This document shows, in pieces, positions 34,169-60,485 of a stretch of 60,485 nt of DNA. Below the pieces are notes generated by a model. That model saw nothing but the letters and a program-made list of their open reading frames with translations. It was not told the origin of the DNA and ran no database searches. The translations under genes were made by a program, and so were the position numbers. The stretch comes from Candidatus Parcubacteria bacterium (GTDB lineage: Bacteria; Patescibacteriota; Saccharimonadia; Saccharimonadales; 2-12-FULL-41-12), in the NCBI GenBank assembly GCA_019347895.1, contig JAHWKM010000005.1, forward strand, positions 1-60,485, given 5' to 3'. Positions within the stretch are counted from its first letter, which is position 1, and the number at the start of each line of letters is the position of its first letter.

Positions 34169-35080
34169 TTAGGTTACTTTTGCAAATAATTCCGGATGCG
34201 ATTTTGGAAGCTTAGCAAATAAATCAACCATTTTTGTAGTAATTGTGCCCGGATTTGAAGAAATTTGCTTGTCATTAACCTGCCGGCACCAGGTTATTCC
34301 CGTAGCGGTTCCGCTAAAAAATATTTCATCGACCGCAAATAATTCTTCTTTTTTAACCTTGCGCTCTTCCACCTCAATCCCCTGCTCGCTCGCAATCTCA
34401 AGAATAGTCCTTCTAGTAATGCCTCCTAAAATATCGCTATCTAAAGACGGAGTAATCAGTTTGCCTTCCTTGGCTAAAAAAATGTTCATAACGGCACCTT
34501 CGGAGACATCTCCATTTTTATCCAGCATGATGGCCGAATCAAACCCGGACTGGCGCGCTTCGTTGATGGCCAAAGCGGAATTAATATATCCGCCGGTGGC
34601 TTTGCTGCTAGGCGGTATGGATTTCGAATTGTTTCTGACCCAGTCTGAAATGCACACTTTAAGGCCTTGGTTTTTATCAAAATAATTTTCAATTTTTAGC
34701 ATGTAGATTGCCAGCTCGTAATCGCCCGCAATGCCGGGAGATAAATTAAGATCGCTTCGGTATATAATCGGCCGGATATAGGTTGGCGCGGAGATTTTAT
34801 TTTTTTTGGCCAAATCAAATATTTTTGCCTTGATTTTTTCCGCGCTAAATTTATAGGGAAATCCAAGAATTTTAATACTGTCCTGCAGGCGCTTAATATG
34901 ATCCTCAAGTCTGAATACCGCCGGGCCGGTGGGAGTTTGAACTATTTTTAGTCCGCCGTATATGCCGCCGCCGTAATGCAGCGCGTTAGTCATTATCGAC
35001 AGCTTGGCTTCCTTAATTGGTATTATTTTTCCTTCAAAATAAGCATAATCATAAGGAGTTGCGAAAGGTTTTGAACTCAT
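34169..35080 (-). CDS. ilvE: Branched-chain amino acid aminotransferase (class IV)
   Basis: YAYFEGKIIPIKEAKLSIMTNALHYGGGIYGGLK...YINSALAINEA...GITRRTILEIA. Confidence 0.92.
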   Translation of the reverse strand: MSSKPFATPYDYAYFEGKIIPIKEAKLSIMTNALHYGGGIYGGLKIVQTPTGPAVFRLEDHIKRLQDSIKILGFPYKFSAEKIKAKIFDLAKKNKISAPTYIRPIIYRSDLNLSPGIAGDYELAIYMLKIENYFDKNQGLKVCISDWVRNNSKSIPPSSKATGGYINSALAINEARQSGFDSAIMLDKNGDVSEGAVMNIFLAKEGKLITPSLDSDILGGITRRTILEIASEQGIEVEERKVKKEELFAVDEIFFSGTATGITWCRQVNDKQISSNPGTITTKMVDLFAKLPKSHPELFAKVT

Positions 35081-36156
35081 TTTTTGTTCAATTCCGCCGG
35101 ATACGACCCCAAGACCTTGCAAATTCTGGTCATTCCATCAATTTTTTCCAAGGCTAGCTTAACCGACTCATCGTCTCTATGCCCGACAAAATCAATATAA
35201 AAAGCATACTGGCCTTGCTCGTAAGGCTGCGACTCCAGCCGGGTCATGGAAATATTTCCCTCGGCTAAAACGCCCAGGATCTGATACAGCGCGCCGGGCT
35301 TGTCTTTGGCAACGCAAATCATTGATGTCTTATCGCTTCCGGTTGGTTTGGTCTTAAGATTTCCCAGGGCTATAAATCGCGTCTCATTGTCAGGCTGATC
35401 ATTGATAGCTGTTTCCAAAATATTTAAGCCGTAAATCTCCGCCGCTTTTTTTGGTGCAATAGCAGCACCTTCTGTTGTATTAGCAGCCATTTGGGCAGCC
35501 GAAGCGTTGCTTTTTTGAGGCACATGAATAGCACTCGGTAAATGAGTAGCCAGCCATGTGCGGCACTGGCCAAGGGCTTGAGGATGGGCGTAAACTCTTT
35601 TTATGGACGAGAGGTCTTTATCCTTGCTAAGCAGGCAGTGCGCAACCGGAACGCTGATTTCGGACACAATATTAACGTCCGTTTTAAGCAGCAAGCTGTG
35701 CGTCTCCCGGACGGCACCTTCGCTGGAATTTTCAATCGGCACGACAGCAAGTTGAGTCGTACCGGCTTGAACCGCCCGAAATACCGCGGATATGGTCTCT
35801 TCCGGATGCAACTGCACGGTGTTGCCGAATAGTTTTAGGGCTGCTTCCTGGCTGTAAGTTCCTTCCGGCCCCAGATAACCCACGCTTATAGGCCGATCAA
35901 GCTGCAGCTGATCGCGAAAACTTGAGATTATTTGCGTAAAAATCGATCTCACGGCATCTGTGGTCAGCGGGCCATTATTAATGTCGCTCAGACGTCGGAC
36001 TATCTCAATCTCCCTTTCTGGCCGAATAGGAGTTTTTCCAGTGGAAGTTTTTTTAATTTTAAGAGCCAGCCTGGCACGGTCATTCAGCAGATCCAGAATT
36101 TTGCTGTCCAGCCCGTCAATCTCTTTTCTAATCTTTTCTAGATCGCTATCGCTCAT
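35077..36156 (-). CDS. pheA: Bifunctional chorismate mutase / prephenate dehydratase
   Basis: N-terminal CM helix (LEKIRKEIDGLDSKILDLLNDRARLALKI), VGYLGPEGTYSQEAAL, C-terminal ACT (GALYQILGVLAEGNISMTRLESQP). Confidence 0.93.
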   Translation of the reverse strand: MSDSDLEKIRKEIDGLDSKILDLLNDRARLALKIKKTSTGKTPIRPEREIEIVRRLSDINNGPLTTDAVRSIFTQIISSFRDQLQLDRPISVGYLGPEGTYSQEAALKLFGNTVQLHPEETISAVFRAVQAGTTQLAVVPIENSSEGAVRETHSLLLKTDVNIVSEISVPVAHCLLSKDKDLSSIKRVYAHPQALGQCRTWLATHLPSAIHVPQKSNASAAQMAANTTEGAAIAPKKAAEIYGLNILETAINDQPDNETRFIALGNLKTKPTGSDKTSMICVAKDKPGALYQILGVLAEGNISMTRLESQPYEQGQYAFYIDFVGHRDDESVKLALEKIDGMTRICKVLGSYPAELNKK

Positions 36157-36883
36157 TTTTATCCTTTAATTCTTCATCAATTTTACTTAATACCTTAATA
36201 AATCTAGTCCGCACCTCTGCAGCGTAAGGATTACCGCGCTCTATAGTCTTAAATAATTCTATACTGTGCAAGCGCTCTAGCTCAACCAAGTCAAGTAGTT
36301 TTTGATAATAGCCTGTTTTGAGGGGGCTGCTTGGCAAGTCAAGTTTGAGCAGTCCCCGGCCGACAAAAAACGTCAGGGCATGCACCAAGGCCATTTCCCT
36401 GTCATGCTCTTCCGGACCCATCTCAATTATTTCCAGCCGCAAAAAATCCCTGAGCAAGGTTAGGATTTGATTATAATCTTTAACTTCTAGCGGATAAATA
36501 ACAATTTTCTGCCCGTTAAGATTGGTACCTTTTACAGTCTGCGGCCCGAACAAGGGATGTGTGGCTACCAACTGGCATTTGCCGTCTAAGTATTTTTTCA
36601 TAATTTCGACCGGTTTGGTTTTAACAGAGCATACGTCGAGCACAACAGTTTCAGTATTCACATACCTTGCAAGCTTTTGGCATACTATCGGCATTTCATC
36701 CAGTCCGCAGGCCATAATTACTACTCGGCAAGCAGCAACTTCTTTAATAGTGGTTTGCGTGATTCTATTTGGCAGAGATTTTGATATGTCGCGCTTGCTA
36801 TATACCAGCACATTGCCGTATTTAACCAGTATTTTAGCTATGAATTCACCGAACGCGCCATAACCAACTATACCTGTGTTCAT
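36146..36883 (-). CDS. Prephenate dehydrogenase-like protein
   Basis: GIVGYGAFGEFIAKIL...VLDVCSVKTKPVEIM...LVATHPLFGPQTVKG. Confidence 0.85.
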   Translation of the reverse strand: MNTGIVGYGAFGEFIAKILVKYGNVLVYSKRDISKSLPNRITQTTIKEVAACRVVIMACGLDEMPIVCQKLARYVNTETVVLDVCSVKTKPVEIMKKYLDGKCQLVATHPLFGPQTVKGTNLNGQKIVIYPLEVKDYNQILTLLRDFLRLEIIEMGPEEHDREMALVHALTFFVGRGLLKLDLPSSPLKTGYYQKLLDLVELERLHSIELFKTIERGNPYAAEVRTRFIKVLSKIDEELKDKNER

Positions 36884-37600: not shown

Positions 37601-38503
37601 TCAGTTAAAAAGAGCGACGAATACAACGATAAAAAAGGCGACCCTGATCAAAAAATCAGTAGATATGTATTTACCTTCAATCTGTAAATACTCCTCTTTG
37701 CCGGCGCCGCTTCGTATGTAACGAGACTGAGTCAACGCCAGGCTGATAAATCCAACCAATAGTACCGCGGCAAGCACGTAAACGTGCCAGCCGAAAGCCT
37801 GCATGCCATAAAGGGACGTACCGACTAAACCAACAGCTAGAGGGAACCAGGCAAAAACGCCGGTGACCAAGCTTATGTAAAATGACGCGTAACTTTGGGC
37901 GCCTGCTTTGTTCTGTTTTTCTGAAACCCAGCCCAAAAGCGCTGTTACCAATATTAATACGGCGATAAGTTTTAGGGTTACTATGTCTGAAACGCCGCCG
38001 ATCAAGCTTACAAATGCTAGCGTTAAAGCGGAAATTATTCCCATAGATATCCATCTAAGCGCAGGGGCTTTATTATTTACGCCTTCTTCGTATTTAGCGC
38101 GTAATCTTGTGGCTAGCAACAGAGAAAAAACCGCGCTTAAGCCAAATATTGCCGCTAGCAAATAGCGAAGCTCTACGCTGGCGACGATTTCATAGGCTGG
38201 CCCTAAAACTGTTGACTCAAGGCTGGCCAGCTCATCTTTTGTTGAGTAAGGCAAGTAAAATTCAGCCGATTTGTTCGATAAAAATACCACGCTCAAGACC
38301 GCAAAAATAGCGTTGATTGCCGCCGCGAAAAGATTGAACTTTTTCAATTTCGCAAATGTGACCGACTGCTTAGATTCTTTCTTAGGCGCCATTGCTTTAC
38401 TGACAGCTTTTTTTGCGGTTGTTTTTTTTGTTGTTGTTCTGGCCGAAGCTGTTTTTCTCTTTGCAGCTGATTTCTTGTTTGACGATTTTTTGGCGGTAGC
38501 CAT
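37601..38503 (-). CDS. Heliorhodopsin-like 7-TM protein lacking the retinal-binding Lys, with Lys/Ala-rich N-terminal tail
   Basis: LLAAIFGLSAVFSLLLATRLRAKYEEGVNNKAPALRWISMGIISALTL...GGVSDIVTLKLIAVLILVTALLGWVSEKQ...SLALTQSRYIRSGAGKEEYLQIEGKYISTDFLIRVAFFIVVFVALFN. Confidence 0.75.
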   Translation of the reverse strand: MATAKKSSNKKSAAKRKTASARTTTKKTTAKKAVSKAMAPKKESKQSVTFAKLKKFNLFAAAINAIFAVLSVVFLSNKSAEFYLPYSTKDELASLESTVLGPAYEIVASVELRYLLAAIFGLSAVFSLLLATRLRAKYEEGVNNKAPALRWISMGIISALTLAFVSLIGGVSDIVTLKLIAVLILVTALLGWVSEKQNKAGAQSYASFYISLVTGVFAWFPLAVGLVGTSLYGMQAFGWHVYVLAAVLLVGFISLALTQSRYIRSGAGKEEYLQIEGKYISTDFLIRVAFFIVVFVALFN

Positions 38504-57878: not shown

Positions 57879-60485
57879 TTATAGCGAGCCTAAGCTACCC
57901 GTTATTACCCAGTTAGCGCCGTCACTGGTAATCTGCCGAGTTGTCCACTGCGTACCTATGGCGGTGGTGGCATTGCCGTCAATGGTTTCAGTACCGTCCG
58001 GGTCCATTGTTACGGTATTCAAACTGGAATCAATCTTTTTAATGGTGTAGGTGCGGCCATTGATACCAACAGCTGACGGCAAGCTAATGACAATCGAGCC
58101 ACCCCCTGCATCACCTAAGATAACCGAGTCGGAGGCGGTAGCGGTGTAGTTGGCGGTTTTGGTGGTAATGGCGGTGGTGATGTTGGCTGCGATAAAGCTG
58201 TCGTCAGTCTTCAGCGTGTTGGCCGCACTGCGGTAGAGGTTGGTGTCGGTACCAAAGTACAGGCCGCCGCTGGCAGTTGTAGTGTCGGTACCGACCGTCA
58301 GGATGCCGTTGGCAGGCACGGCGGCCGGACCGACGGCCAGGCGCTGATTGGTGGTGTCGGCTACCAGCAGGTTCTGTCCGGCGGCATTCTGGATATGGAA
58401 AGCGGTAGAGGAGTCGGAACGGTTTTTGAAGATAGCCTCGCCGTTGTTGTTGATTTGAAAGTTAGTACTGTAATCTGTGGTATTTAGAAACTTAAAGGAA
58501 TCAGACTGTACCTGAATGTCTCCTCCGGCGTTGTAATTGCCCAGCTGGATAGAGCTTGTGCCTGAAAGGTATTTTAAGGTGGCGTTGCCAGTACTGCCAT
58601 CAAGAGTAAGTGTCTTATCGGCGCTTAGATTGATATCAGCATTGGCTATAATTTTTCCATCATTAGTGTTTACGCTAAGCAAATTAGTCCCTGCGGCGTT
58701 TTGGACTTGGAAGGCAGTGGCGGAGTTTGTGGCAGTTTGGATACTAAAACTATCATCCGTCTTCAGCACGTTGGCGGCCGAGCGGTAGAGGTTGGTGTCG
58801 GTGCCAAACGTAATACCTCCGGCAGCGGCGGTGTCAGTATCTGCGCCGATATTTATTCTGGAAATCGTCTGGCTGCTGCCAACTTGCAGCTTGCCTTCGA
58901 TAAGGTTCTTGGCAGTCGCACCAGCCGAGAAAAGATTATAGCTATTGGAAGAGCCGACACCTGACTGGTCTTGGATGTAGAGGCCGTAGTTATTGGTGAA
59001 AGTACCACCACCGGAATTAGACGCGGATTGGATGTGTACGCCGTACCCGTCGGTGATGGTTCCGGTGCCAGCGTTCCCTACTATCGCGTTAACGCCTTTT
59101 GCGCTCGTAATAGTTCCGCTACTAGAGTTATAGATAAAATTATTTGATCCTTTGGCGTCAGTTACCGTACCGCTAGATACGTTTTGAGCCGTGAGAAAAG
59201 CACCGCTCAAAAAATCGACACTGCCGGTTCCCCGATGAGTGCCGCCAATGTTGGCGCCTTCCAGAACATAAAAGTTTTGAATATTACCACTTTGGGAGTT
59301 GGCTAAAAGCTGGGCGCCACGGAAGCTTGAGCTAGAAGCGGCAGCCGGGTTACCAGTAATACTGCTGTAGATAGCTTCCCTACCGCCGCCTGCCGTATCG
59401 GTGCGAGTTTCTTCAATGTTAACGGTTGTAGTGCTAAATATATTGGCTGTTGGGCCAAAGGCTGCCCGGCCGGCTACATCAAGATTACCTGCGAAGTTTG
59501 AAGTACCCGTCCCCTGCACCGTCAGATTGGAGCCGGTACCGTTGAGAACAAAGCTGTCATCGGTCTGCAGGGTGTCGGCGGCAGAGCGGTATAAGTTGGT
59601 GTCGGTAGCTGCCGTGCCGTCTCCAAACAGCAGTGCTCCGTCTTGGCGCAGCACGAAGCGGTTAAAGGCGTCGCCACTGACACCGGCACTGAGCGCGCTG
59701 TCGGTGGCGCTGCTCCGGCTAATGTTGAACTGGTCGTTGGTGGCGAGCATATCCGCGCCTCCGCGGAACAATACGGTATCCACTACACCTGCACCATCAC
59801 CCCACCAGTGATTACCATTGCCCTGGATGTAGAAACTAAGCTGGGGGTTTGTGCTGTTGTATGTACTAAATGCAATGTCGGCGGCGTTCCCCCGGTAGAC
59901 GCGGAATTGATCGTCGGTCTGCAGCAGATTAGCCGCTGAACGGTACAGATTCGTATCTGTACCAAAGTACAGGCCGCCAGCCGCTGTAGTGGTGTCTGTG
60001 CCGACAGTAAGAACACCGCCTGCCGGTACGGCAGCCAATCCTACGGCCAGGCGCTGGTTGGTAGTGTCGACTACCAGCAGGTTGCTCCCCGCCGCATTCT
60101 GTACCCGGAAGGCGGTGGTGGAATCAGTGGTGTTCTTGAACAGCCCGCTGCCATTAACCGTCAGATCACCTCCCGTAGTGTTGGTGGTGTTAGGAGTATA
60201 GGCACTGGTGGCCTGTCCGGTGTCGTTGATGGTGGTGGCGGTGACGCTGGTAGCCAGTGAAGTACTGGTAGTACCTTTTAAGACATCGTAGCTGGTGGCG
60301 TTAGCTACGGCTGTCCAGGAGATGGTGTTGTAGTTGGTGGCATCAAGGATGGCGTTGCCGGTGCTAGTGGTACCGGCCGGTCCGGGGATGGTAGCGCCGT
60401 TGGCGTTTTTAGCCACAATGAAGTAGTCGTAGGTAGTAGAGCCGATAGTACCAACGTTGGTAACCGTAGGAGCAGACGGAGTAGC
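57879..60485 (-). CDS. Large repetitive surface/fibre-like protein (5' end beyond window)
   Basis: Repeats such as GLYFGTDTNLYRSAANTLKTDDSF and STAFxIQNAAGxNLLVxDTTNQRLAVG; FnIII-like TSYDVLKGTT; C-terminal tail-fibre-like IVISLPSAVGINGRTYTIKKIDSSLNTVTMDPDGTETIDG; open to window end. Confidence 0.75.
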   Translation of the reverse strand, partial: ATPSAPTVTNVGTIGSTTYDYFIVAKNANGATIPGPAGTTSTGNAILDATNYNTISWTAVANATSYDVLKGTTSTSLATSVTATTINDTGQATSAYTPNTTNTTGGDLTVNGSGLFKNTTDSTTAFRVQNAAGSNLLVVDTTNQRLAVGLAAVPAGGVLTVGTDTTTAAGGLYFGTDTNLYRSAANLLQTDDQFRVYRGNAADIAFSTYNSTNPQLSFYIQGNGNHWWGDGAGVVDTVLFRGGADMLATNDQFNISRSSATDSALSAGVSGDAFNRFVLRQDGALLFGDGTAATDTNLYRSAADTLQTDDSFVLNGTGSNLTVQGTGTSNFAGNLDVAGRAAFGPTANIFSTTTVNIEETRTDTAGGGREAIYSSITGNPAAASSSSFRGAQLLANSQSGNIQNFYVLEGANIGGTHRGTGSVDFLSGAFLTAQNVSSGTVTDAKGSNNFIYNSSSGTITSAKGVNAIVGNAGTGTITDGYGVHIQSASNSGGGTFTNNYGLYIQDQSGVGSSNSYNLFSAGATAKNLIEGKLQVGSSQTISRINIGADTDTAAAGGITFGTDTNLYRSAANVLKTDDSFSIQTATNSATAFQVQNAAGTNLLSVNTNDGKIIANADINLSADKTLTLDGSTGNATLKYLSGTSSIQLGNYNAGGDIQVQSDSFKFLNTTDYSTNFQINNNGEAIFKNRSDSSTAFHIQNAAGQNLLVADTTNQRLAVGPAAVPANGILTVGTDTTTASGGLYFGTDTNLYRSAANTLKTDDSFIAANITTAITTKTANYTATASDSVILGDAGGGSIVISLPSAVGINGRTYTIKKIDSSLNTVTMDPDGTETIDGNATTAIGTQWTTRQITSDGANWVITGSLGSL

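Follow-up and report, generated by a model that had tools for sequence, protein, structure and literature searches.

The protein encoded at 37601..38503 (-) of the window (the whole 60,485-nucleotide stretch of DNA analysed here, from a Candidatus Parcubacteria bacterium of the Saccharimonadales) is a real, well-conserved heliorhodopsin (HeR) without the retinal-binding lysine, one of many such proteins at a fixed locus. Lysine loss at this one conserved locus is recurrent and the intracellular residue network is kept, a pattern that the original prediction for the window gene had overlooked. Such repeated loss, with the shape and the inner output machinery preserved, suggests that heliorhodopsins have a job for which no light is needed. 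The role of heliorhodopsins is still largely open; orthologues that share one locus and differ in whether they have the retinal lysine form a natural series in which light input can be told apart from the conserved output side, and which singles out residues Tyr92, Arg104, Trp105, Glu149 and Glu230 (numbering of 48C12) as well as the neighbours msrA and rRNA methyltransferases.

The window protein and its retinal site

The open reading frame is intact, as had been claimed: it runs from an ATG at 38503 to a stop codon at 37601-37603 and encodes 300 amino acids with seven transmembrane (TM) helices and an N-terminus predicted to be cytoplasmic. The start codon is supported by the MATAKK start shared with the same-genus homologue L049. 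Membership of the heliorhodopsin family, initially proposed from the TM pattern and motifs, was confirmed. The Pfam Heliorhodopsin profile PF18761 matched with an E-value of 2.1e-24 and 86.6 bits, above its curated cut-off of 26.7; the PDB heliorhodopsin sequences matched with E-values from 9e-13 to 9e-11; and an AlphaFold2 model made using 33 relatives (mean pLDDT 88.5) displayed seven TM helices and a two-stranded extracellular loop after TM1. When this model was compared with the PDB by Foldseek, the top ten places were all taken by heliorhodopsins, with TaHeR 6is6 in front (TM 0.89 by target length, rmsd 2.0). The NCBIfam HeR equivalog gave 82.6 bits (E 3.1e-23), which is below its curated cut-off of 100, so that the NCBI rule would not name the protein HeR. 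The beta-stranded TM1-TM2 loop is a hallmark of HeR (PMC9385722); in the window protein this loop, the heliorhodopsin dimer loop, spans residues 79-111 (38171..38269 (-)), with strands at 79-89 and 100-111 according to the DSSP analysis of the model. Another 7-TM family is ruled out by the Pfam, PDB and Foldseek results, and the matches to the heliorhodopsin profile and structures, not to Bac_rhodopsin, place the protein outside the type-1 opsin lineage. In the source genome (907 kb, 92.6% complete) the window gene is the sole HeR copy and no type-1 rhodopsin was found. Judging from homology and from its basic N-terminal tail, the protein would have the inverted topology, with a cytoplasmic N-terminus.

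Alignment of TM7 (DFLIR opposite SLVAK of 48C12) puts Arg287, codon AGG at 37643..37645 (-), at the position of the Schiff-base Lys241, and alignment of TM3 (RWISMG opposite RWVEYS) puts Ser153 (38045..38047 (-)) at that of the counterion Glu107. Both substitutions agree with the original prediction, and no Lys is found at position 241. The initial TM7 line-up, correct as to the Arg, had overlooked Asp283 (37655..37657 (-)), which stands at the position of the SxxxK serine, Ser237, giving DxxxR in place of SxxxK. The window protein thus has neither the SxxxK motif in TM7 nor the Glu counterion in TM3 that serve as criteria for a functional HeR, the 'bona fide HeR' of PMC8612252; His23 and His80 are also replaced, by Asn64 and Ser127. 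Covalent retinal binding is very unlikely, since Arg is by established chemistry unable to form a retinylidene Schiff base.

A retinal-free state is not a trait of the close group: Lys241 is retained in the other five genomes of the family, which combine it with Asp at 237 and lack an acid at 107. Asp at 237 is thus common to all six genomes of the family, where position 107 is S, F, A or Y. Across homologues, Arg recurs at position 241 in four other proteins (L036, L040, L044 and L045); the other members of the window's own family have Lys there. Arg as a marker of the window's clade is ruled out by these family lysines. Because the family neighbours keep Lys241, Arg287 could be recent, or could stem from an assembly or read error.

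Relatives, tree and conserved locus

A search of genome contigs with the single protein did not find relatives; a three-row alignment led to three Saccharibacteria loci. HeR matches were present in 49 of 61 related genomes, among them the six that make up the window's family. This genome set was unselected. The extra loci were chosen mainly for low scores, so the counts that follow describe the final set and not proportions in the order as a whole. The final set contained 32 canonical proteins, defined by Glu107 plus Lys241; all 32 have Ser237 too. Lys241 was absent from 24 non-canonical proteins, where it was replaced by Arg (5), Ala (4), Gln (3), Ser, Leu, Val, Ile or Glu (2 each), Trp (1) or Thr (1), and the ORF was intact at all 24 Lys-less loci. 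The two locus HeRs with Glu at the Schiff-base position are L072 and L077; L077 and L074 have kept Glu107 while lacking Lys241.

The HeRs of the locus form one clade of 48 rows (support 100/99), with canonical proteins at the base and the non-canonical ones nested inside. The 22- and 23-row clades containing the window protein had supports of 98/96 and 99/95, and a tree from a smaller set likewise nested the non-canonical proteins in the canonical locus HeRs. At least nine changes between Lys and another residue at 241 are counted by unordered parsimony, some of them as regains; with regain forbidden, our own count is 19 losses on the tree. From this nesting and the shared locus it follows that the gene was inherited vertically and lost its lysine without leaving the locus. 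The window protein is the positional orthologue of the Saccharimonadales HeR at the lysS-msrA-rsmE locus.

The order that recurs in many families is lysS, (DUF427), msrA, HeR, (HAD), TRAM/RNA uracil-5-methyltransferase, rsmE, PD-(D/E)XK nuclease, serS, hpf and secA, each locus carrying a subset of these neighbours. In the window these neighbours include msrA (peptide methionine sulfoxide reductase, PF01625; 38652..39173 (+)), a conserved neighbour that is divergent here, and an rsmE-type 16S rRNA methyltransferase gene (PF04452, PF20260; 36894..37586 (-)) that starts 14 bases past the HeR-like stop codon. The genes for a class I lysyl-tRNA synthetase (LysRS; PF01921; 39212..40738 (-)) and for a PD-(D/E)XK nuclease family protein (PF12705; 33360..34142 (-)) are in conserved slots. 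All 24 Lys-less proteins had at least one locus neighbour, and none was found away from the locus among the loci compared. Of the 16 remaining non-canonical rows, 15 likewise had such a neighbour; the exception, L026, is of canonical type and has an alignment gap at 107. Canonical Lys/Glu heliorhodopsins fill the locus in sister lineages; overall, 10 canonical HeRs were at the locus and 21 elsewhere, with many loci having short flanks (about 1.5 kb) that possibly hide neighbours. Five canonical genes with long flanks (L032, L033, L034, L080 and L081) had no locus neighbour; they constitute a separate canonical clade (100/100) off the locus and are extra copies in several genomes. A second copy, of canonical type, was found elsewhere in genomes G003, G012, G016, G045, G047 and G052.

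One oddity concerns the LysRS slot next to msrA and HeR, which holds a class I gene in the window and in several relatives and a class II gene in others (the loci concerned are the window, L041:5574-7103, L053, L054, L056, L058 and L077). Two classes of LysRS that are unrelated to each other have been swapped in place inside a single order.

Intracellular network, acid/base pair and N-terminal tail

The output side of heliorhodopsins is proposed to be the intracellular Tyr-Glu-Arg-Glu network. In 48C12, according to QM/MM and MD work, hydrogen bonds join His80-Asn16-Tyr92-Glu230-Arg104-Glu149 into a chain on the intracellular side, in which Glu149 and Glu230 hold Arg104 between them (PMC9726877). 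In the window protein the corresponding residues are Arg150-Trp151 (48C12 Arg104-Trp105; 38051..38056 (-)), Glu195 (Glu149; 37919..37921 (-)), Glu276 (Glu230; 37676..37678 (-)) and, at the intracellular gate, Tyr138 (Tyr92; 38090..38092 (-)). Among the 24 Lys-less proteins the Arg is found in 24 and the Trp in 23, the first Glu is Glu in 21 and Asp in 3, the second is Glu in 22 and Asp in 2, and the Tyr is found in 21. On the Schiff-base side, Tyr108 is present in 4/24, Ser237 in 3/24, Ser111 in 3/24 and His80 in 8/24 of them; in the canonical proteins R104, W105, E149, E230, Y92, Y108, S237, S111 and H80 are each 32/32. The Lys-less pair L050/L051, both with Gln at 241, is under purifying selection, with a dN/dS of about 0.07 (a rough value, dS being 2.16 and near saturation). 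The near-invariance of the network and this low ratio imply that the output side is constrained without light input. Residues conserved specifically in the clade are D90, R113, K178 and W239 (window numbering); going by the helix limits, they are probably located at or close to the helix ends and the extracellular loop.

A second regularity links positions 241, 107 and 237. Of 39 non-canonical proteins, 20 have a basic residue at 241, and 17 of these also have an acid at 107 or 237; of the 19 without a basic residue there, 3 have such an acid (Fisher 1.9e-5, kinship ignored); phylogenetically independent pairs gave 3.4 to 0 of 5 (p 0.125), in the same direction and not significant. In the window family the acid has shifted from TM3 to TM7, as Asp at 237. 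DxxxK in TM7 without an acid at 107 was seen in L049, L052, L048, L041 and L053. In the Lys-containing family members this Asp could be a relocated counterion, and in the window protein Asp283 and Arg287, one helix turn apart, may form an ion pair.

The Lys/Ala-rich tail announced by the original prediction is real, its composition being confirmed as distinct from background. This K/A/T-rich disordered segment covers residues 1-49 (38357..38503 (-)); window residues 1-51 include 16 K/R and 1 D/E, and the pLDDT of residues 1-40 is about 49-62. Applied to the window and the related loci, which have 298 ORFs between them, a filter for K-rich, acid-poor N-tails passed 18, all of them HeR-like, and one search of the source organism's own genome found no second match to the tail. 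A basic composition and a MAxxKK start are common to most of the clade. In the inverted topology the tail should be cytoplasmic. A coupling of the tail to retinal loss did not survive the comparison of loci: two canonical Lys241/Glu107 HeRs of the same locus (L016 and L068) carry a tail and four Lys-less copies (L036, L042, L027 and L057) have none, which rules it out as a marker of retinal loss. Since it is found on retinal-competent HeRs, the tail does not mark a light-free role; it is older than, or independent of, the loss of the lysine. As to the likeness to H1/HU, the window protein had no Pfam or NCBIfam match to a family of that type up to an E-value of 10; the resemblance is one of composition only, and nucleic-acid binding is putative.

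Proposed function and its alternatives

We put at slightly better than even (about 0.55) the probability that the window protein is a HeR orthologue that no longer binds retinal covalently and functions independently of light, in a membrane docking or regulatory role; a light-independent docking/regulatory protein that keeps the HeR output side is the most likely candidate. The protein keeps the fold of a HeR, its dimer loop and its intracellular Tyr-Glu-Arg-Glu network; it is probably devoid of any chromophore and would act constitutively or in response to a small ligand or ion. With its basic disordered tail and basic loops it would bind an acidic partner from the cytosol, be it protein, RNA or DNA, and keep it at the membrane, and Asp283-Arg287 would replace the core-stabilising Glu107-Lys241 ion pair. 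The docking step is modelled on AbHeR, which docks glutamine synthetase via cytosolic Lys/Arg residues (PMC9529153); AbHeR differs from the window protein in that it binds retinal, responds to light, has a known partner and has no long tail. More tentatively, and with rather less confidence, one may imagine a light-independent core function common to the retinal-binding and Lys-less HeRs of the msrA/rRNA-methyltransferase locus, where a machine connected with nucleic acids or translation would be tethered or regulated at the membrane by the intracellular gate and the basic tail. Retinal would then be an optional input, repeatedly kept or lost, and light sensing would not be the function that defines the heliorhodopsins of this group.

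Could light still be sensed? A non-covalent retinal or carotenoid-like chromophore might be used, or a covalent one in the Lys-containing relatives with Asp237 as counterion, the window protein being then a marginal variant. Five close relatives do combine Lys241 with Asp at 237, as in the DxxxK of type-1 rhodopsins, and the acid/base pair is retained as Asp283/Arg287. Arg, however, cannot make the Schiff base, and His23, His80, Glu107, Tyr108 and Ser111 are all replaced in the window protein; the source genome has no detected type-1 rhodopsin, and a BCD (Blh-type) search was silent in 41 genomes, as it was in the controls. We deem this reading unlikely. We give still less credit to Arg287 being an assembly or sequencing error for Lys, in a protein that would be a DxxxK HeR like the rest of its family: all five family relatives have Lys and AGG is one base from AAG, but Arg occupies the same position in the four independently assembled genomes named above, and Ser153 and the lost histidines stand regardless.

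A decaying relic, unneeded without light or retinal and drifting towards loss, with a residual conservation due to fold constraint, would account for the free variation at the retinal pocket positions, for the very divergent long-branch rows L056, L074 and L057, and for the absence of the gene from some genomes. It accords poorly with 24 intact ORFs at 24 Lys-less loci, with the finding that none of the six genomes in the window's family lacks the gene and with the dN/dS of the L050/L051 pair; moreover, the near-invariant charged network residues are near the surface and not obviously demanded by the fold alone, and the clade has conserved residues of its own (D90, R113, K178 and W239). We therefore view decay as doubtful, and a little less probable than a retained chromophore.

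The docking or regulatory protein that we favour has partial counterparts. With canonical HeRs (48C12, TaHeR; PF18761) it has in common the fold, the extracellular beta loop and the Tyr92-Glu230-Arg104-Glu149 network; it differs by the lack of the Schiff-base Lys, Glu107 and His23/His80, by Asp in place of Ser237 and by its basic tail. The opsin-related proteins (ORPs) are type-1 opsins without the Schiff-base lysine, including a Lys to Arg change in group A (Becker et al. 2016, PMC4915679); they are expressed and show no canonical retinal binding (PMC4915679). The resemblance lies in recurrent lysine loss, in an opsin fold that stays intact and in a function suggested to be independent of light. 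ORPs are haloarchaeal or fungal type-1 opsins, several of them beside chemotaxis transducers, whereas proteins of the window type are type-3 (inverted) rhodopsins whose housekeeping locus includes no transducer: the window protein works like an ORP but is not one. A cytoplasmic N-terminal addition on a heliorhodopsin is also seen in MORN-HeR and Znf-HeR (PMC8612252); there, the additions are folded domains and SxxxK is kept, in contrast with the disordered basic tail described here.

Three earlier HeR surveys required SxxxK or the TM7 lysine (PMC8612252, PMC9601134, PMC9166423), so that Lys-less members were filtered out. No report of a Lys-less heliorhodopsin was found in the open-access literature that was searched. 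Lys-less type-1 opsins were already known; Lys-less heliorhodopsins are new within that literature.

Two other features of the window deserve mention. Downstream of the HeR-like and rsmE-type genes, at 34169-36883(-), lies a cassette for prephenate dehydrogenase, chorismate mutase/prephenate dehydratase and a class IV aminotransferase, which is unusual for small-genome Saccharibacteria and is also present in the family members L049 and L052. At 57882-60485(-), a long open frame with a repetitive, secreted-looking sequence continues past the end of the window.
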